Origin: an uncultured Clostridia bacterium
GTDB taxonomy: Bacteria; Bacillota; Clostridia; Oscillospirales; Acutalibacteraceae
DNA: 35,050 nt
Assembly (NCBI GenBank): GCA_947630285.1
Contig: CANRHD010000020.1
Span: 1-35,050 of the forward strand
Direction: 5' to 3'
Shown here: in pieces, positions 4,149-17,935 of the stretch
Layout: the number at the start of each line of letters is the position of its first letter
Numbering within the stretch: position 1 is the stretch's first letter
Translations under genes and position numbers: made by a program
Notes under the pieces: generated by a model
What the model was told of the DNA's origin: nothing
Databases searched by the model: none
What the model saw: only the letters and a program-made list of their open reading frames with translations

Positions 4149-4559
4149 TTACCCATAAGTTTTTTCAATATTTTTTGTGATTTTGTCATCACTTCCGCCT
4201 GTACCGGAAATAGTGAACTCAACATGCGATCTGTATGTTCCGGTTTTTGATAACTGTAACGAATGGCTTTGTGAAAAGCTATTCGCAGTTGATGTATCGG
4301 TCCACTTGCCGTTATCAACAGTTATCCAAATCAAGCCAAACTTTTTCTGAATCTTTGTCTCAATTGTTCCTTTTGTTACAAGCCCTGATTTCCCTATATA
4401 ACTATTAGATACTGTAGCTTTTCCGGTGCTTGATATGTAAAACGATGTTTCTGCAGTATAAATATTATTTGCGCACGGAGTAATGCTGCTTGCATATACA
4501 GGAAAAGTTACTGTGAACAGCGTAACAAAACACAAAACTGCTGCAATAAGTTTTTTCAT
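4149..4559 (-). CDS. Small secreted protein of unknown function
   Basis: 136 residues starting MKKLIAAVLCFV. The start is fixed by an AAAGGAGGGG site seven bases upstream; a longer reading begins inside the upstream hairpin and is rejected. Residues 1-23 form a signal peptide ending VYA. The mature part is Thr/Ser/Gly rich, mostly beta by pattern (ETSFYISSTGKATVSN, HVEFTISGTG), with one cysteine and no catalytic motif that I recognise. It lies 76 bases downstream of the DUF4367-like gene on the same strand, separated by a perfect inverted repeat. It may be read with the ECF sigma operon or from its own signal. Similar small secreted proteins occur in clostridia with no known role. Confidence 0.75.
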   Translation of the reverse strand: MKKLIAAVLCFVTLFTVTFPVYASSITPCANNIYTAETSFYISSTGKATVSNSYIGKSGLVTKGTIETKIQKKFGLIWITVDNGKWTDTSTANSFSQSHSLQLSKTGTYRSHVEFTISGTGGSDDKITKNIEKTYG

Positions 4560-4576
4560 AAAAAATCCCCTCCTTT

Positions 4577-4613
4577 CAACTGTTATTTTTCCCTTCACTA
4601 TATATAACAGTTG
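4577..4613 (-). repeat. Perfect 10-bp inverted repeat directly before a ribosome site
   Basis: CAACTGTTAT at 4577-4586 pairs exactly with ATAACAGTTG at 4604-4613, with a 17-base loop. On the minus-strand transcript it falls after the DUF4367-like gene stop (4636), and its 3' arm abuts the AAAGGAGGGG ribosome site of the small secreted protein. There is no T-run after it, so it is not a standard terminator. It could be an mRNA processing or stability hairpin, or an operator. Confidence 0.6.
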
Positions 4614-4635
4614 AAAAAGAGGGTGTAGCTACAAA

Positions 4636-5310
4636 TTATTCAATTTTTTCTGAAATATTTTCTTGAAGAGTTGTAATATCGTTTTTAATACTGTTTGGAA
4701 CTTTTATTGTAAAACAATAATAGCCATCACTCCATCTAAGTGTTCTACCGTATTTATCTTCTGTTAAATATGCTTTTAAACCGTTAATTTCAAGTTCGCG
4801 ATATTCGTGCTCATTATCAATCAAAACATTTGAATCAAGGATATTTTGACTAAATACAATTTCTTCTCCGCTTTCATTCAACCAAACAACAAATACATTG
4901 ATATCACTTTTTTTGTATTCGCTTATCTCATATCCCTCCGGTAAATTTGTTAATGTATATTCCGTTTGTATCGTTTCAACAGGTGGAATTGAATTTTCGC
5001 TCAGGGTTATTTCATTAAACTGTGAAAGCACTCTTTTCACAAATTCAATAATCGGTTCCCTTGTTGCCGCCACGCTCATTAAGCCCGTAAACAAAACCAT
5101 AATCGCAATGATTGCGGCAATCAGGCTTTTGGTAAGCGTTCTTCGTGTTGAAAACTTAATGCGGTTGTTCTTTTTAACAAGCCTATCCATTGACCTGACG
5201 AATTTTTCCGAAAACTCCCATTGGATTTCGTCCTCGCTCGGAATTTCGGCGTTGTCAAGTCTCTCGGCTTCCATAAACGCTTTTACAAATAATTCTTTTG
5301 CATTTTCCAA
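4636..5310 (-). CDS. Membrane anti-sigma-like protein (DUF4367-type) paired with the ECF sigma factor
   Basis: 224 residues. A cytoplasmic N-terminal part (1-60) is acidic then basic, one transmembrane helix spans about 61-83 (LIAAIIAIMVLFTGLMSVAA), and an outside domain follows. That domain has the pattern of DUF4367 (YTLTNLPEGYEISEYKK, ELEINGLKAYLTED, LRWSDGYYCFTIKV). The only in-frame start is TTG, one base after the sigma gene stop and seven bases after a GAGGGAT site, so translation is probably coupled. In clostridia, genes of this form directly after an ECF sigma gene are taken to be its membrane regulator; I infer that here from position. It could instead be a substrate of that sigma system. 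Confidence 0.75.
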   Translation of the reverse strand: MENAKELFVKAFMEAERLDNAEIPSEDEIQWEFSEKFVRSMDRLVKKNNRIKFSTRRTLTKSLIAAIIAIMVLFTGLMSVAATREPIIEFVKRVLSQFNEITLSENSIPPVETIQTEYTLTNLPEGYEISEYKKSDINVFVVWLNESGEEIVFSQNILDSNVLIDNEHEYRELEINGLKAYLTEDKYGRTLRWSDGYYCFTIKVPNSIKNDITTLQENISEKIE

Positions 5311-5311
5311 G

Positions 5312-5857
5312 TTAATCCCTCAAATCGTTTTCCAATATTTCAAGCAGTTTCTTCTTACCTCTAATTATTTGCTGATGCACAGTAGAATTTTTCCGTCCCA
5401 ACAAATCTGCAATTTCCTTAATTTTCATTCCTACGACAAAATGATAAAACAAAACATCTTTGTATGTATTGCTAATGCTTTGTATGGCTTTTACCACTTC
5501 TTCGTAGTTTTCCTGTATATTCAGTTTATCAAAAAATTGTTCATCAGTCATATTTTCAACATCTTCAAGCTGAATATGCTTATTCCTTGTTGCGTTCTTT
5601 TGAGAAAGGTTGATTGCATTGTTTTTTGCGGCCTTTAATACATATGAAAGTGTTTCGTCGGAGTTCGGATTTCCTATCGACTGCATGTTTCGTGCAATTT
5701 TTATAAAGGCGTCGTGGACGGCGTCCTCTGCGTCTTCTCTGTTCTTTAAAACAGAGAAAGCAACGGATACCATTCTTTTTCTGTAATTTTTATATAGCAA
5801 TTCAAATTTTGCTCTGTCATCATCGTTGTCGATGAGCGACATGTAGAACATCAGCAT
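5312..5857 (-). CDS. ECF-type RNA polymerase sigma factor
   Basis: 181 residues from the ATG that begins MLMFYMSLIDNDDD, ten bases after a GAGGGA site. An upstream in-frame GTG overlaps that site and is less likely. Region 2 is clear (FELLYKNYRKRMVSVAFSVL, then NREDAEDAVHDAFIKIARN), and region 4 is a helix-turn-helix (YKDVLFYHFVVGMKIKEIADLL then STVHQQIIRGKKKL). Length and layout fit an extracytoplasmic-function sigma factor. It heads a unit with the TTG-started membrane gene and perhaps the small secreted protein. Upstream (5991-6004) lies a short palindrome GTTTGT-tg-ACAAAC that could belong to its promoter region. What signal it answers is not visible. Confidence 0.9.
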   Translation of the reverse strand: MLMFYMSLIDNDDDRAKFELLYKNYRKRMVSVAFSVLKNREDAEDAVHDAFIKIARNMQSIGNPNSDETLSYVLKAAKNNAINLSQKNATRNKHIQLEDVENMTDEQFFDKLNIQENYEEVVKAIQSISNTYKDVLFYHFVVGMKIKEIADLLGRKNSTVHQQIIRGKKKLLEILENDLRD

Positions 5858-6009
5858 CTTTTTAATGTCCCTCACTTAATAAAACACTTTAAAAGCCGTT
5901 TTTATTACAATTTTTATAAAATTTATTTTACACTCTATTCTTTGCTTTCGCAACAATCCGTGTCGAAATTTATCAAATATACACGAAAATGTTTGTTGAC
6001 AAACGCATA

Positions 6010-6057: not shown

Positions 6058-7362
6058 TTATGTTTTAAAATCATTTTTCCTCGTAAATACAATATTCGTT
6101 TCAAATGTTTTTAAATTATCATCATACTCCCAGTCATAAACGGCTTCGTATTTTTCAAGTATCTTTTTAATGCTTTGCGTGCCTATGCCGTGGAGTTTTT
6201 TATTTTTCTTAGTCGTTTTAAGCTTGCCGCCGTCTGTTATCGGGGCAACGGAACAGTTATTTTTTACAGAAAGTCCGTCGCACATACCGTTTCTTGAAAA
6301 AATATCTAACCGAACGAAGCCGTTATCGGTTTTTTCGGCCGCTTCGACTGCATTATCAAGCAAATTGTTCATCAGCGAAGATAAATCGGTATCGTCTATA
6401 TACGACAAGTTTGCAGTTTTAACATCAACGGAAAACTTAATATTTTTCTTTTCGCAAAGCATGGCATATTTGCTGATTATCAAATCCAATACTTTATTTT
6501 TGCTTATTCCCGTGCGGTTAAATCTTTCAACGGTCGGATATATTCCGTCAATATATCTTTGCACCTCTTCCATATTTTCAAGGTTGCTTATCTGTATTAA
6601 ATGATTTTTAATATCGTGTGAAAACACACGCATTTCTTTATTTGACTGCTCAATAATTTCAAAATACCGTCTATCCTGTTCTTCACGGTCCTGAATGGAT
6701 TTTAATTCATACAGCTCTTTTGTGTTTTTTAAAGAAAATTCATAAATAATGAAAACCAATATGTTGGCAAACAATAAGCCTACGCATGAAATTATCCACA
6801 GAACGCTCATAGTCTTTGTAAGCTGCATTTGATATGAAATATATCTGAAACAGATTAGCACGATTACGCTTGTGAGCGGCATTACAAACAGCGGCCAAAA
6901 ATATTTGTTGTAATGCTCTTTACCTTCTTTTTGGGCAAACAGCTTAAGGATAATTAACATTAACCCGGAATATATTAATTTACTTGTCGTTACTATTAAT
7001 AAATAATCAAGTTGGTTGGTTTCAAAAGCATTAAAGCCCTTGTAGAATACGGAGCTTAACGCCATTACCAATATTTCGGAAACAAACATTACAAATAAAA
7101 ATATAAATGTGTGAAATACCGCTGTCTTTAAAGAAACCTTGTAAAAGCAAAAAAGGAGCAGAGTATATATAATAAACATAAGAATTGTATTCAGGTATGT
7201 AATATTTAACTGGTATATCACACCCAAAAAGGCTATGCTTAAAAAGATTAAAGGAACCCTTATCCGAGCGCTCTTTTTGGCGCTGAAAAGAGAATCGGAA
7301 TAATACAAAAACAACAGGAACTCAAAAAAGTATATAAATATGTCCGTTATAATTTTAATCAT
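6058..7362 (-). CDS. agrC: AgrC-like sensor histidine kinase (GHKL ATPase)
   Basis: 434 residues. The first 210 hold about six hydrophobic membrane helices with few charged residues, as in AgrC-type peptide receptors. After a linker comes the dimerisation box with the phospho-accepting histidine (SHDIKNHL, His249). The ATPase domain follows: N-box LMNNLLDNAVEAAE at about 330-343 and a glycine box HGIGTQSIKKI at about 395. The gene starts at an ATG overlapping the last eight bases of the response regulator gene, with an AGGTGAGGAT site nine bases upstream. It most likely binds the cyclic peptide made by the agrDB genes at 8.7-9.4 kb and phosphorylates the LytTR regulator. The peptide partner is inferred from location. 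The symbol follows the family; orthology to staphylococcal agrC is not shown. Confidence 0.9.
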   Translation of the reverse strand: MIKIITDIFIYFFEFLLFLYYSDSLFSAKKSARIRVPLIFLSIAFLGVIYQLNITYLNTILMFIIYTLLLFCFYKVSLKTAVFHTFIFLFVMFVSEILVMALSSVFYKGFNAFETNQLDYLLIVTTSKLIYSGLMLIILKLFAQKEGKEHYNKYFWPLFVMPLTSVIVLICFRYISYQMQLTKTMSVLWIISCVGLLFANILVFIIYEFSLKNTKELYELKSIQDREEQDRRYFEIIEQSNKEMRVFSHDIKNHLIQISNLENMEEVQRYIDGIYPTVERFNRTGISKNKVLDLIISKYAMLCEKKNIKFSVDVKTANLSYIDDTDLSSLMNNLLDNAVEAAEKTDNGFVRLDIFSRNGMCDGLSVKNNCSVAPITDGGKLKTTKKNKKLHGIGTQSIKKILEKYEAVYDWEYDDNLKTFETNIVFTRKNDFKT

Positions 7363-8071
7363 GGCTTATATCCTCACCTATAAATTTTAAAAACCGCTTT
7401 TTAAATTCCGGCTGTTTTCTTGTAGCAACGGAAATTCTTATATTTTGACAGGGCCGGGCCAAGAAGATTTCACTTCTTTGGAAACTCCTTATATAGTTCA
7501 TATTAACTATATAACTGTTATGCGGAACGGCGAAATAAGACGCCGTAAGCATAGGGCGAAGCTGTTTCATAGTCTCTTTTATTACAAATGAGTTCTCCGC
7601 TGTAAAAACAAAAACGCCTCTGAGCTTTGCCTCGGCGTAAATAATATCGGAGGCTTTGAGTCTTATAACCCGACTGTCTTTTGCGTGCAGAACTATAACG
7701 CTTTCGTTTATAACGCTGAGGGCTTTGTCAAGCGCAGAAAAAATACGGTTCTGCTTTATGGGTTTGTCAATATATCTTGTTACCTGAATATCCATAGCGT
7801 CGTCCAGATATTGATTATACGCAGTAACGACAAGAATAACCGTATTTCTGTTTATTTTCTGTATTTCTTTCGCAACCGAAATGCCGTTTAAGTTGCCAAG
7901 CTCTATATCAAGGAACAGTATATCATAGGTTTTATCGGATTTAATTAAATCCTCCCCTGTTTTATATTCATCAATACTGCATTCGATATGGCGTAATTTA
8001 AAATATTCCTCGGCATAACACTTCACAGACAATCTGCACTCCGTTATGTCGTCACATATTGCGATTTGCAT
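7355..8071 (-). CDS. agrA: LytTR-family response regulator (AgrA-like)
   Basis: 238 residues. The receiver domain (1-120) has the acidic pocket (CDD at 6-8), the phospho-accepting Asp55 in FLDIELGN, and a conserved Lys in YIDKPIK. The C-terminal LytTR DNA-binding domain spans about 130-235 (VIRLKASDIIYAEAK, FAVPHNSYIVNMNYI). The start follows a GAGGGT site. It is the first gene of an operon with the kinase (eight-base overlap) and has its own promoter at 8115-8143. By family knowledge it should bind paired direct repeats upstream of the peptide gene; a candidate pair is at 8602-8623. Regulators of this shape control either the agr operon itself or secreted factors. Confidence 0.9.
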   Translation of the reverse strand: MQIAICDDITECRLSVKCYAEEYFKLRHIECSIDEYKTGEDLIKSDKTYDILFLDIELGNLNGISVAKEIQKINRNTVILVVTAYNQYLDDAMDIQVTRYIDKPIKQNRIFSALDKALSVINESVIVLHAKDSRVIRLKASDIIYAEAKLRGVFVFTAENSFVIKETMKQLRPMLTASYFAVPHNSYIVNMNYIRSFQRSEIFLARPCQNIRISVATRKQPEFKKRFLKFIGEDISHD

Positions 8072-8149: not shown

Positions 8150-8461
8150 TTATTTTATAAAAGCGTCAATTATATCGGATATTATAATTTTATACTCATC
8201 AGAACACTTTTTAAGTTTTTGTATAATTTCATCATTAATATCCGCATACAGTGTTCCGGAAGCTATGTAATCCGTATTTATTTTCAATTCGGAGCAAATG
8301 TCAAGGAACAGTAAAAAGCTCGGAGCCGCTCTGCCTCGCTCAATATTTGAAAGATGATTGTTGGAAATATTCAGCCTATTGGCAAAATCTTTTTGACTTA
8401 TTCCCAATTCTCTGCGGCGCATAAAAATTCTATTTCCTATTTGCTTTAAATTATGTTCCAT
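8150..8461 (-). CDS. XRE-family helix-turn-helix regulator inside the agr locus
   Basis: 103 residues from the ATG reading MEHNLKQIGN, with a GGGAGAG site nine bases upstream. Residues about 7-62 form a Cro/C1-type helix-turn-helix (RRELGISQKDFANRLNISNNHLSNIERGRAAPS), the recognition helix being NNHLSNIERG. The C-terminal 40 residues are a short helical tail without a ligand-domain signature. The gene lies between the divergent agrD-agrB and agrA-agrC units and shares the 236-base region upstream of agrD. It probably binds one or both agr promoters; the perfect palindrome at 8097-8123 is the best candidate site. Whether it represses or activates is unknown. Confidence 0.85.
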   Translation of the reverse strand: MEHNLKQIGNRIFMRRRELGISQKDFANRLNISNNHLSNIERGRAAPSFLLFLDICSELKINTDYIASGTLYADINDEIIQKLKKCSDEYKIIISDIIDAFIK

Positions 8462-8601
8462 AGTCTGTTCTCTCCCATAAAACAATGTTATCATCATTAT
8501 TTTACAAATCAAACAAACTTATAGCGAAATAGTTTTAAAATAATTGTAATTTATGGGTTGAAAAAGAAAATATTTTGTCATATTTTAAATTTCTGCGATT
8601 A

Positions 8602-8623
8602 ACATTTAAAATGCAGGCATTTA
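8602..8623 (+). promoter_or_regulatory. Candidate LytTR-regulator binding repeats upstream of agrD
   Basis: ACATTTA at 8602-8608 and GCATTTA at 8617-8623 are direct repeats with a 15-base period. They end about 10 bases before the putative agrD -35 box. LytTR regulators bind two short imperfect direct repeats spaced a little over one helical turn, placed just upstream of a -35 box. The match to the known AgrA half-site is only loose. Confidence 0.35.
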
Positions 8624-8633
8624 TCTGAAGCTG

Positions 8634-8662
8634 TTGATTTTCAGCCTCCTTTTTGTTATTTT
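8634..8662 (+). promoter_or_regulatory. Putative agrD-agrB promoter
   Basis: A -35-like TTGATT (8634-8639) is followed after 17 bases by TATTTT (8657-8662), placing the transcript start near 8669, about 29 bases before the agrD start codon. Both boxes are imperfect, as expected for an activated promoter. Confidence 0.45.
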
Positions 8663-8697
8663 TAAAATATCAAAAATAAATATAAAGGAGAATTATT

Positions 8698-8841
8698 ATG
8701 AAAAAGTCATTAACAAAGGTTATCGACAAAATTGTAGGTGGGACATTAAAGCTGAACATCAACAGCACTACAAGTATTGCCGCTTTTCAGCCGAAGGTTC
8801 CGAAAGAATTGTCGGCGTTAAGTAAATTCAGCAATAAATGA
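8698..8841 (+). CDS. agrD: AgrD-like autoinducing-peptide precursor lacking cysteine
   Basis: 47 residues, preceded by AAAGGAG seven bases upstream. Residues 1-20 form an amphipathic basic helix (MKKSLTKVIDKIVGGTLKLN). The core is INSTTSIAAF, and the acidic-type tail QPKVPKELSALSKF carries the PKEL signature of AgrD precursors. By alignment with AgrD, the ring would run from Ser26 to Phe30 (S-I-A-A-F, five residues), cut by AgrB before Gln31. Most AgrD peptides have Cys at the ring position and form a thiolactone; here there is no cysteine anywhere, so a serine lactone is predicted, as known in Staphylococcus intermedius-group peptides. The stop codon overlaps the agrB start (ATGA). The N-terminal cut site of the mature signal cannot be read from sequence. 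Confidence 0.88.
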   Translation: MKKSLTKVIDKIVGGTLKLNINSTTSIAAFQPKVPKELSALSKFSNK

Positions 8842-9440
8842 TTGATAAATTAGCATCTAAAGCGGCCGAAAGATTTTTAAAAAATCCAAATACTAATTAC
8901 GATAAAATCGAAGTATATCAATACGGATTTTTTGTTCTGTTCTCAAACATTATATTCTTTTTGCTGACAATAATATTAGGTGCGGTATTAAATACTTTTT
9001 TATCAAGCATAGTTTTTTACATTGCGTTTTTTTCAATAAGGCAATACGCCGGGGGTTATCATGCTCCGACAGGAACTGAATGCGAGGTTCTGACATCTCT
9101 TTCAATATTAGCTTGCATTGTTGTTATCAGGTTGTCAAAGACATATGATTTTCAAGCTTTTTTGCTTGTTATGAGTGCGGTATCAGCACTGTGCATAGCC
9201 GTTCTTTGTCCGCTCGATACCCCGGAAAAGCCGCTGTCGGAACAGGAGTTTAGGTACTTCCGCAAAATATCGTTGCTGATTTTGGCGGTAATATCTTTTG
9301 CTGTAATTATTTCATATTTCATAAATTTGAAACGGTTGCAAATTTTCTTTACTCCGTGTTGTATGAGCTTGATACTTGAGGCGGTATTGATAACATTGGG
9401 AAAAATCAAAAAAATATCAAGCCGTAAGAAAATAAGCTGA
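8838..9440 (+). CDS. agrB: AgrB-like membrane peptidase processing the AgrD precursor
   Basis: 200 residues. The catalytic pair is visible in RQYAGGYHAPTGTEC: His75 and Cys82, seven residues apart exactly as His77 and Cys84 in staphylococcal AgrB. About four to six membrane helices follow the soluble N-terminal 30 residues (FFVLFSNIIFFLLTIILGAV, TFLSSIVFYIAFFSI, AFLLVMSAVSALCIAVLC and others), and the C-terminus is basic (KKISSRKKIS). It overlaps agrD by four bases, so production of peptide and processor is coupled. By family knowledge it cleaves the AgrD C-terminal tail and forms the ring through an acyl-enzyme intermediate on the cysteine; here the attacking group on the substrate would be a serine hydroxyl. 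Confidence 0.93.
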   Translation: MIDKLASKAAERFLKNPNTNYDKIEVYQYGFFVLFSNIIFFLLTIILGAVLNTFLSSIVFYIAFFSIRQYAGGYHAPTGTECEVLTSLSILACIVVIRLSKTYDFQAFLLVMSAVSALCIAVLCPLDTPEKPLSEQEFRYFRKISLLILAVISFAVIISYFINLKRLQIFFTPCCMSLILEAVLITLGKIKKISSRKKIS

Positions 9441-9446
9441 ACAAAA

Positions 9447-9474
9447 AAGGAAGCGTGAAAACATGCTTCCTTTT
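9447..9474 (+). terminator. agrB terminator; left copy of a 28-bp direct repeat
   Basis: GGAAGCGTG (9449-9457) pairs with CATGCTTCC (9462-9470) over an AAAA loop, with one G-U pair, followed by TTTT. It lies eight bases after the agrB stop. The same 28 bases recur identically at 9735-9762 on the far side of the repeat element, an offset of 288 bases. Confidence 0.85.
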
Positions 9475-9480
9475 AGTATG

Positions 9481-9734
9481 TAGAAAAAGTATGTGTCACT
9501 TGGCAATATGCACAAAAGGAGTAAGATTATGGGGAACCCCAATGCGTGGGTTCCCCACCGAAAAACAGTCCACCGGACTGTTTTTCGCCCCTCCTGCGCT
9601 CCTTGAAGCACAGGTGTTTCGCAGTCTGCGGACTGCGCCGAGGGCTTTGCCCCTCGACCCCACCACCTTTTGAAAAAGGCGGCCGAAAACTTTTGGACAT
9701 TTTGCTATCGCAAAACAATTCATCGACAAGCTGA
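9481..9734 (+). repeat. Dispersed structured repeat element, copy 1 (254 bp)
   Basis: A non-coding element that recurs inverted at 17684-17935 and partly at 30195-30277. It begins TAGAAAAAGTATGTGTCAC and ends CATCGACAAGCTGA, without terminal inverted repeats. Internal hairpins: A at 9531-9556 (GGGGAACCC / GGGTTCCCC); B at 9559-9587 (CGAAAAACAGTCC / GGACTGTTTTTCG, 13 bp, three-base loop); C at 9620-9637 (CGCAGTC / GACTGCG); a GC-rich one near 9639-9657; E at 9663-9682; and a small TTTTGC-TATC-GCAAAA one near 9700. Short open frames across it differ between copies and are not genes. It is flanked by identical 28-bp copies of the agrB terminator. Function unknown; it may be a MITE-like mobile element, a structured RNA or a transcription-blocking repeat. 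Confidence 0.9.
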
Positions 9735-9764
9735 AAGGAAGCGTGAAAACATGCTTCCTTTTTT
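9735..9764 (+). terminator. Second copy of the agrB terminator hairpin
   Basis: The hairpin of 9449-9474 is repeated without change, followed by TTTTTT. It directly abuts the 3' end of the repeat element and lies 20 bases before the convergent FAD enzyme gene stop. The longer T-run suggests this side carries the original terminator tail. Confidence 0.8.
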
Positions 9765-9783
9765 ATATACGCCGTTTTGATTT

Positions 9784-11172
9784 TCACTCTTCGCTTCCGC
9801 TTTTCACCGAATTAATGTGTCTTGCAACATGTATACCGCTTGCGGAAGCGTGCGAAAGCGAATGTGTAATTCCGCTGCAATCGCCTATGACATAAAGCCC
9901 CTTGTGCATTGTTTGCAGATTTTTGTCAATGGAAACCTCCATATTATAAAACTTAACCTCAACGCCGTATATCAGCGTGTCGGTGTTCGCCGTACCGGGC
10001 GCAATCTTGTCGAGAGCGTATATCATCTCGATTACGCCGTCAAGTATCCGCTTCGGTATTACAAGGCTTAAATCGCCGGGCGTGGCATTGAGCGTGGGGG
10101 TGACAAACGCCTCGTTAATTCTTTCGGGCGTGCTTCTTTTGCCGTTGATAAGGTCGCCGAAGCGCTGAACTATTACTCCGCCGCCGAGCATATTTGAAAG
10201 CCTTGCGATGCTCTCGCCGTAGCCGTTGCTGTCCTTAAAGGGTTCGGAAAAATGCTTTGCGACAAGAAGCGCAAAATTCGTGTTGTTAGTCTGCTTGGCA
10301 GGGTCCTCGTAGCTGTGGCCGTTTACCGTGACTATGCCGTTTGTATTTTCGTTTACGACTGCGCCCCTGGGGTTCATACAGAAGGTTCTGACCAAATCCT
10401 CATACTTTTCGGTTCGGTAAACTATTTTACTCTCGTAAAGCTCGTCGGTAAGATGCGAAAAAATCTCGTAGGGAAGCTCGACCCTGACGCCTATATCCAC
10501 CCTGTTGCTCTTTGTGGGGATCTCAAGCTCGGCGCAAACCGTTTCCATCCATTTGCTTCCGCTCCTGCCGACAGAAATAATGCAGTATTGCGCCTCGATT
10601 TTTTCATCGCCGTCGGTTTCGACGCAAAAGCCCTTTTCGGTCTTTTTAATGTGCTGTGCACAGGTGAGGAACCTGAAATCAATTTTATCCCTGAGGTCGT
10701 TATACATATTTTCAAGTACGATGTAATTAATATCCGTACCGAGATGGCGCACCGAAGCGTCCAAAAGCATAAGCCCGTGCTGCAGGCACTGCTTTTTAAT
10801 TTCGGTATTTGCGGTGGAATACAGCTTTGTACCCTCTGCGCCGTATTTTAAATTAATTGAATCCACATAGTGCATAAGCTCCAGCGCCTCGTGCTTGCCT
10901 ATGTACTCGTAGAGCGTGCCGCCGAACTGATTGGTTATATTGTATTTGCCGTCCGAGAATGCGCCTGCTCCGCCAAAGCCGTTCATAATCGAACAGGGCT
11001 TACAGCCGATACAGCTTTTAATTTTTTTGCCGTCAATGGGGCATTTTCGCTTGTTAAGAGGATTTCCTGCCTCAATTACGGTGATTTTTAAATCAGGATT
11101 TGAGTTAATAAGCTCATATGCCGAGAAAATTCCCCCCGGGCCTGCTCCTACAATGGCAACATCGTAAAACAT
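9784..11172 (-). CDS. FAD-dependent oxidoreductase (COG2509-like)
   Basis: 462 residues from the ATG reading MFYDVAIVGAGPGG, eight bases after an AAAGGAT site. The 21 residues upstream in the same frame have no ribosome site and are rejected. The N-terminal dinucleotide fold GAGPGGIFSAYE is followed by a cysteine-rich stretch (KRKCPIDGKKIKSCIGCKPC, four cysteines) and GFGGAGAFSDGKYN. A second FAD motif lies near the C-terminus (GLYVIGDCSGITHSLSHASASG). This arrangement fits the large uncharacterised dehydrogenase family with a CxxC-type cysteine cluster after the Rossmann motif. The substrate is unknown. It has its own promoter right behind the methyltransferase gene. Confidence 0.85.
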   Translation of the reverse strand: MFYDVAIVGAGPGGIFSAYELINSNPDLKITVIEAGNPLNKRKCPIDGKKIKSCIGCKPCSIMNGFGGAGAFSDGKYNITNQFGGTLYEYIGKHEALELMHYVDSINLKYGAEGTKLYSTANTEIKKQCLQHGLMLLDASVRHLGTDINYIVLENMYNDLRDKIDFRFLTCAQHIKKTEKGFCVETDGDEKIEAQYCIISVGRSGSKWMETVCAELEIPTKSNRVDIGVRVELPYEIFSHLTDELYESKIVYRTEKYEDLVRTFCMNPRGAVVNENTNGIVTVNGHSYEDPAKQTNNTNFALLVAKHFSEPFKDSNGYGESIARLSNMLGGGVIVQRFGDLINGKRSTPERINEAFVTPTLNATPGDLSLVIPKRILDGVIEMIYALDKIAPGTANTDTLIYGVEVKFYNMEVSIDKNLQTMHKGLYVIGDCSGITHSLSHASASGIHVARHINSVKSGSEE

Positions 11173-17681: not shown

Positions 17682-17683
17682 CT

Positions 17684-17935
17684 CAGCCTGCCGATAAACT
17701 GTTTTGCGATAGCAAAATGTCCAAAAGTTTTCGGCCGCCTTTTTCAAAAGGCGGTGGGGTCGAGGGGCAAAGCCCTCGGCGCAGTCCGCAGACTGCGAAA
17801 CACCTGTGCTTCAAAGAGCGCAGGAGGGGCGCAAAACAGTTCAGTGAACTGTTTTGCGATGGGGAACCCTCGCCGGGGGTTCCCCATAATCTTATTCCTT
17901 TTGTGCATATTGCCGAGTGACACATACTTTTTCTA
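17684..17935 (-). repeat. Dispersed structured repeat element, copy 2 (252 bp, inverted relative to copy 1)
   Basis: On the minus strand it starts and ends like copy 1 (TAGAAAAAGTATGTGTCAC to GGCAGGCTG) and matches it closely throughout. Hairpin A (17861-17885) keeps the GGGGAACCC/GGGTTCCCC stem with a different loop. Hairpin B (17830-17858) is CGCAAAACAGTTC / GAACTGTTTTGCG: two base pairs differ from copy 1, both changed on both arms. Hairpin E (17735-17754) is fully paired, CCGCC/GGCGG. It is flanked by 33-bp direct repeats of the neighbouring terminator. Confidence 0.9.

Follow-up and report, generated by a model that had tools for sequence, protein, structure and literature searches.

The described agr systems closest to the locus analyzed here include several in which serine takes the place of the ring cysteine. 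In Staphylococcus pseudintermedius and Staphylococcus intermedius (AIP RIPT[STGFF]), serine substitutes for cysteine, as in our locus, and there closes a lactone; agrB, agrD, agrC and agrA are all present, although in the staphylococcal gene order, which differs from that of our locus. The S. pseudintermedius switch was perhaps a point mutation according to the accessible text of PMC10482373, whereas the family of our locus exchanges cysteine, serine and threonine. Enterococcus faecalis Fsr (GBAP, QN[SPNIFGQWM]) produces a serine lactone by means of an AgrB homologue, like the signal predicted here, but its ring has nine residues and fsrD lies inside fsrB (PMC3673130, available portion). A sequence-only reading of our locus had named serine lactones from the S. 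intermedius group; the accessible parts of PMC12312760 and PMC10482373 bear this out and add E. faecalis. The agr2 locus of Clostridioides difficile, listed as NSA[SSWVA] in Table 1 of PMC12312760, resembles ours in being clostridial, in carrying serine at the ring position and in comprising four genes. Listeria monocytogenes agr (CFMFV) shares the AgrB dyad and the agrBDCA genes with our locus, but its ring residue is cysteine. In Staphylococcus aureus agr groups I-IV, signal and receptor vary together, as they do here; the S. aureus hypervariable region takes in part of agrB (PMC10482373, accessible text), whereas two loci compared below, L032 and L035, keep agrB and differ in the agrD core, agrA and agrC.

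The window, a 35,050-nucleotide stretch of DNA from an uncultured Clostridia bacterium (GCA_947630285.1, contig CANRHD010000020.1), carries an agrD-agrB pair with a receptor kinase and a LytTR regulator encoded beside it (Table 1). We are fairly confident that this is a complete agr locus with a predicted serine-lactone signal, having a ring of five or four residues, in a family whose ring-residue exchange tracks AgrC more than AgrB.

Table 1. Features of the agr locus in the window.
Feature	Position	Strand	Basis
agrC-like receptor histidine kinase, GHKL ATPase domain	6058..7362	-	PF14501 E 2.1e-18
agrA-like response regulator, receiver + LytTR	7355..8071	-	PF00072, PF04397
XRE-type regulator between agrA and agrD, likely start ATG ~8461	8150..8512	-	PF01381 E 5.7e-12
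Divergent intergenic region, blocks conserved in L018 and L019	8513..8697	.	alignment
agrD, 47 aa, no cysteine	8698..8841	+	translation = MKKSLTKVIDKIVGGTLKLNINSTTSIAAFQPKVPKELSALSKFSNK
agrD regions: amphipathic leader 1-20; INSTT tail 21-25; core starts at Ser26; then QPKVPKEL recognition tail			
Ser26 codon AGT, putative ring-closing residue, -5 from Q of QPK	8773..8775	+	codon table; aligned with relatives' Cys
Core S-I-A-A-F	8773..8787	+	predicted ring S-I-A-A-F or S-I-A-A by AgrB cut site (spacing, Listeria CFMFV)
agrB, 200 aa, membrane peptidase/cyclase	8838..9440	+	PF04647 E 1.6e-36

The AgrD precursor has the leader, core and charged tail with P-x-x-P of its family. It matches the NCBIfam profile TIGR04223 (quorum_AgrD) with 25.5 bits (E 1.1e-5), above the curated cut-off of 19, and it is the sole match, itself above the cut-off, when its own 2.03 Mb genome is searched with that profile at E up to 1. 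Control genomes gave matches in 6/14 cases and above the cut-off in 0/14, and of 16 members chosen to represent Ser, Thr and Cys, 15 match the profile (E up to 0.01). On its 5' side the agrD ATG has a ribosome-binding site rich in purines (aaaggag, 8684-8690), and the agrD stop and the agrB ATG overlap by 4 nt. With an intact agrB adjoining, these results uphold the sequence-only reading in calling the peptide AgrD-like. Its statement that the precursor holds no cysteine is confirmed by the translation of 8698-8841; the core cysteine of a thiolactone AIP is therefore absent, and alignment places Ser26 in the column of the relatives' ring cysteine, the ring position that had been proposed for it and the one that serine occupies in a serine-lactone AIP.

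The other genes of the locus look intact from their sequences. The AgrB residues His75 and Cys82, equivalent to the catalytic dyad, are both present in 66/66 aligned AgrBs and have the spacing of the S. aureus dyad, which is His77/Cys84 (PMC10482373, accessible text). agrC overlaps the end of agrA by 8 nt. AgrC reaches 57 bits against NF046015, far under its 500-bit cut-off, and is similar to the kinase module of S. aureus AgrC (6e52; E 7.2e-6). The XRE gene between agrA and agrD is common to many relatives by synteny, and it is better conserved than agrB: its product is 84% and 89% identical to those of the loci L018 and L019, against 63% and 73% for AgrB. No AgrA binding site was identified in the intergenic alignment of the window, L018 and L019 or in a promoter-like motif search over 8400-9800, where matches were near chance (7 against 4.5 in shuffles, sd 2.4), and Rfam gave zero matches over the window at gathering thresholds. 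Downstream of agrC (4149-5875, reverse strand) lie genes for an ECF sigma factor, a small protein that is probably secreted, and a DUF4367 protein that is possibly an anti-sigma factor.

An interspersed repeat of about 240 bases follows directly after agrB (9446-9762), with a second window copy on the reverse strand at 17683-17914. Counting the repeat itself, the genome holds at least 40 long matches to it at 85-100% identity (40 of 127 candidates scored). Direct repeats of 14-31 bases flank 15 of the 21 copies examined, several of them being whole terminator-stem-like hairpins, and the copy after agrB lies between two 29-base copies of AAAGGAAGCGTGAAAACATGCTTCCTTTT; it is as if the repeat inserts at hairpins and duplicates them.

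The serine is shared with the nearest relatives. AgrB relatives were collected from genome contigs (best 80 of 113 retained), and the nearest two found among them, L019 (AgrB 73% identical) and L018 (63%), have the peptide stretches VNSTTSIAMF and INSTSSLAMF, both with serine at the site of Ser26. Ser26 is therefore not a recent point mutation; one confined to the window strain is ruled out, and the case in which close relatives all carry cysteine, against which the sequence-only reading had set its claim, is not what we found. The two loci also have a gene order identical to that of the window's agr locus. Because this order and the peptide recur, with agrD pN/pS of 0.19, 0.56 and 0.21 (point estimates from the three pairwise comparisons of window, L018 and L019), agrD is more than a chance open reading frame; agrB gave 0.24-0.29 in the same comparison. 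The AgrB clade of the three loci is supported at 100/99 and has serine in 3/3. Within the clade serine is conserved beside AgrB; in the wider family the residue is not tied to AgrB type, and one pair of AgrBs 95.2% identical accompanies a serine and a cysteine signal.

A decaying locus appears highly improbable in light of these comparisons. The system is often missing, with an AgrB match in only 16/39 genomes of the window's genus, but here the genes are open, the dyad is intact, agrD pN/pS is below 1 in all three comparisons and the serine is common to L018 and L019.

We analyzed how often cysteine, serine and threonine occupy the site. The 16 loci of the genus have cysteine in eight (six at -5, two at -6), serine in three including the window and threonine in three; of the other two, one is truncated and one lacks a recognised AgrD. 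In the order sample, AgrB was matched in 72/395 genomes (E up to 0.001), with 65 above the cut-off. From 209 AgrB matches, 2 short ones and 43 with identical cores were removed; of the 164 loci kept, 31 lacked a recognised AgrD and the rest gave 133 parsed AgrB-AgrD pairs, two of which (L017 and L159) were judged spurious by eye, while L188, with cysteine at -7, was kept apart. Counting back from the Q of QPK, we called loci class A, which is the window's class, when C, S or T stands at -5, and class B when it stands at -6. In a sample steered to AgrB relatives of the window, which is not a census, class A (n=66) has cysteine in 38 loci, serine in 20 and threonine in 8, and class B (n=64) has cysteine in 41, serine in 22 and threonine in 1. 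Serine at the ring site is not rare within the sampled loci. The rarity claimed for serine AgrD peptides in the sequence-only reading does not survive these counts, and C. difficile agr2 is also listed with serine. Other cysteines are present in the core of 3 of the 20 class-A serine rows (L006, L026 and L174). The single class-B threonine (L170, TVTLFDCYQPKEP) stands at -6, so threonine may have arisen more than once. Short peptides with a WPP-x-C core (e.g., EWPPKCNSALFEPVRP) adjoin AgrB in L187, L189 and L258 and are apparently another precursor type.

All but one of the 131 genuine-looking AgrDs carry C, S or T at one of the positions -5 and -6, and the remaining one has cysteine at -7; such a residue at the ring site is by itself weak evidence, because Ser and Thr fill neighbouring positions too (C, S or T at -7 or -6 in 129/131 rows) and the AgrD parser scored these three residues slightly higher at -5 or -6. 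An alternative nucleophile next to Ser26 can be considered on the same alignment. Thr25, at -6, sits at class-B spacing, where L170 has its threonine, and could close the ring with Ser26 as the next residue (T-S-I-A-A), but class-A cysteine relatives have their cysteine at -5, and 9 of the 66 class-A loci, including the serine or threonine loci L093, L011, L052 and L013, carry G, N or A at -6. We consider this arrangement distinctly unlikely and retain Ser26 as the predicted ring-closing residue.

The size of the ring that Ser26 would close depends on where AgrB cuts. Class-B AgrDs share the P-x-x-P tail of the window, but the class-A ring residue lies one position closer to the QPK-x-P motif than theirs, so that a four-residue ring is possible beside a five-residue one: a cut before the aromatic residue would give S-I-A-A, and a cut after it S-I-A-A-F. 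In the former case Phe30 would be the first residue of the recognition tail. The -1 residue is mostly aromatic or histidine in both classes (class A, n=66: Y 44, F 14, H 5, W 2, N 1; class B, n=64: Y 38, H 16, C 5, N 2, F 2, G 1), as if it were part of an AgrB motif. In Listeria, a tyrosine comes next after CFMFV, in parallel to Phe30 on the four-residue reading. The Listeria ring CFMFV has itself been measured (PMC4916163, accessible portion), in a study that made use of heterologous production. Against the smaller ring, position -2 is hydrophobic too, and a five-residue ring with an aromatic end is equally natural. Among rings that have been measured, those of staphylococci and Listeria contain five residues, with six in Clostridium acetobutylicum and nine in E. 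faecalis (PMC4916163, PMC12312760 Table 1, as available); none of four residues is among the AIPs in that table, and of synthetic Listeria rings of 4-6 residues the five-residue one was the strongest inducer (PMC4916163, accessible portion). A sequence search returned no solved AgrB structure that could fix the cut site. We give the four-residue ring somewhat less than an even chance.

We propose that the AgrB dyad His75/Cys82 would cleave the AgrD tail at the predicted cut site and that the hydroxyl of Ser26 would attack the acyl-enzyme, forming a lactone and not a thiolactone. The leader would be removed and the peptide exported; AgrC would then bind it and phosphorylate AgrA, which may switch on the agr locus and its targets. 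From the gene content and alignment, a serine lactone is the likely product of the window locus. A hydroxyl is, on the other hand, a weaker nucleophile than a thiol, and this would favour a linear AgrD-derived signal with no ring. So would the S. aureus enzymes AgrB1 and AgrB2, which failed to process a serine AgrD (PMC10482373, accessible text), so that tolerance of serine by AgrB is not to be assumed. Yet an AgrB with an intact dyad has been kept, and C, S or T stands at the site in 66 class-A loci, an argument that is weak because membership of class A itself requires one of these residues at -5; among the genuine upstream AgrDs without cysteine at -6, only L157 lies outside class A, and it has serine at -6. 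A linear signal is in our view quite improbable, and we continue with the serine lactone. Neither AgrC1 nor AgrC2 was activated by lactone forms of AIP-1 and AIP-2 (PMC10482373, accessible text), and a Ser-to-Cys substitution lowered RNAIII expression in S. pseudintermedius (PMC3673130, available portion).

The exchange of cysteine, serine and threonine in the family fits the AgrC tree better than the AgrB tree. Of the 66 class-A loci, 61 have a divergent AgrC; L013, L026 and L179 have less than 1.5 kb of upstream sequence, and in L062 and L117 none was found in more than 4 kb. On the same 61 loci, the residue changes 10 times on the AgrB tree and 5 times on the AgrC tree, a gap of which part may be due to better resolution of the AgrC tree, since AgrC is longer than AgrB; for serine, bootstrap ranges were 4-5 changes on the AgrC tree and 9-10 on the 66-row AgrB tree. 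Near-copies, e.g., L007/L039, were left in the trees, which carry warnings for long end branches (L013, L202 and L152 for AgrB, L093 for AgrC) and for odd composition in some rows. The window and eight other serine loci are grouped on the AgrC tree (support 99/96). Pairs of loci with differing residues reach at most 43.1% AgrC identity, against up to 95.2% AgrB identity. Partial Mantel correlations with the ring residue were weak and similar for AgrB (0.145, p 0.016) and AgrC (0.099, p 0.018). Distances between AgrD tails correlate with those of AgrB (0.41) and not with those of AgrC (-0.06), as expected if AgrB recognises the tail.

We dropped the idea of an AgrB specialised for serine: no AgrB column separates cysteine, serine and threonine, and the best predicts 82% against 58% (38/66) for a guess of always cysteine. 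The sequence-only reading had envisaged both an AgrB and a receptor suited to serine; the receptor half is favoured by the five changes on the AgrC tree, whereas the AgrB half is not supported, given the missing column and the 95.2% pair. The tree positions hint at a swap in the ancestry of the window locus itself, which is not claimed here, as AU tests on the AgrB data, with groups here and below picked after the trees had been seen, rejected neither a single clade of the nine AgrC-grouped serine loci (p 0.277) nor a placement of the window, L018 and L019 with L053/L054/L066 (p 0.506).

Elsewhere in the family, pairs of loci combine similar AgrBs with dissimilar AgrCs. The AgrBs of L032 (serine, SGFMF) and L035 (cysteine, CWAVY) are identical at 180/189 residues (95.2%) and their AgrCs are 30.9% identical. 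The two share 94.5% DNA identity over a stretch that opens 25 bases before agrB and runs to where the shorter contig stops, the similarity starting within the AgrD tail codons, and upstream of that point there is no blastn match. AU tests rejected L032 and L035 as sisters for AgrC (p 0.004) and a clade of L032, L033 and L198 for AgrB (p 0.007). Both are MAG contigs, one of just 5.1 kb, and the pair could reflect a chimeric contig. Similar AgrBs accompany dissimilar AgrCs also where the residue does not change: L020/L027 (AgrB 81.5%, AgrC 34.9%) and L068/L072 (AgrB 80.4%, AgrC 42.4%) have cysteine throughout. L026/L033 (AgrB 97.4%, both serine) also break inside agrD, the L026 contig stopping before agrC. 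L068 and L072 are recorded as a Ruminococcus bromii strain and a Pseudoruminococcus massiliensis strain, and this strain pair argues that the exchange is real, though the residue is unchanged there. At least one change of chemistry appears, from these sequence comparisons, to have come about by recombination, with the agrD core and agrA-agrC swapped and agrB and the AgrD tail kept.

Loci of different predicted chemistry also occur together. A 2.5 Mb MAG (G839; completeness 100, contamination 1), contigs of which match those of the MAG holding L033, has five AgrB genes, with AgrDs that carry cysteine (L242 and L244), serine (L231), threonine (L245) and a class-B cysteine (L254).

Serine lactones are already known; newer are the predicted threonine rings and the exchange of signal and receptor. 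In the literature searched, of which coverage was partial and subscription papers lay mostly outside, we met neither a threonine AIP nor a swap that leaves agrB in place. We suggest, tentatively and as a possibility open to considerable doubt, that AgrB in this family of gut clostridia is indifferent to the nucleophile, making cysteine thiolactones as well as lactones of serine and threonine, and perhaps a hitherto unseen four-residue ring, and that cassettes of core and receptor are swapped against a fixed AgrB and tail, giving insulated channels within a cell. That S. aureus AgrB fails on serine precursors (PMC10482373, accessible text) lends weight to the question of what enables an AgrB enzyme to use serine over cysteine. 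L032 and L035, whose AgrBs differ at 9/189 aligned residues beside a serine and a cysteine precursor, offer a handle on AgrB specificity, and the cysteine, serine and threonine loci together in G839 are material for the question of the AgrB nucleophile. Threonine rings, if true, would broaden the chemistry of AIP signals. Compared with thioesters, esters should withstand thiols better, and this could matter in the gut.
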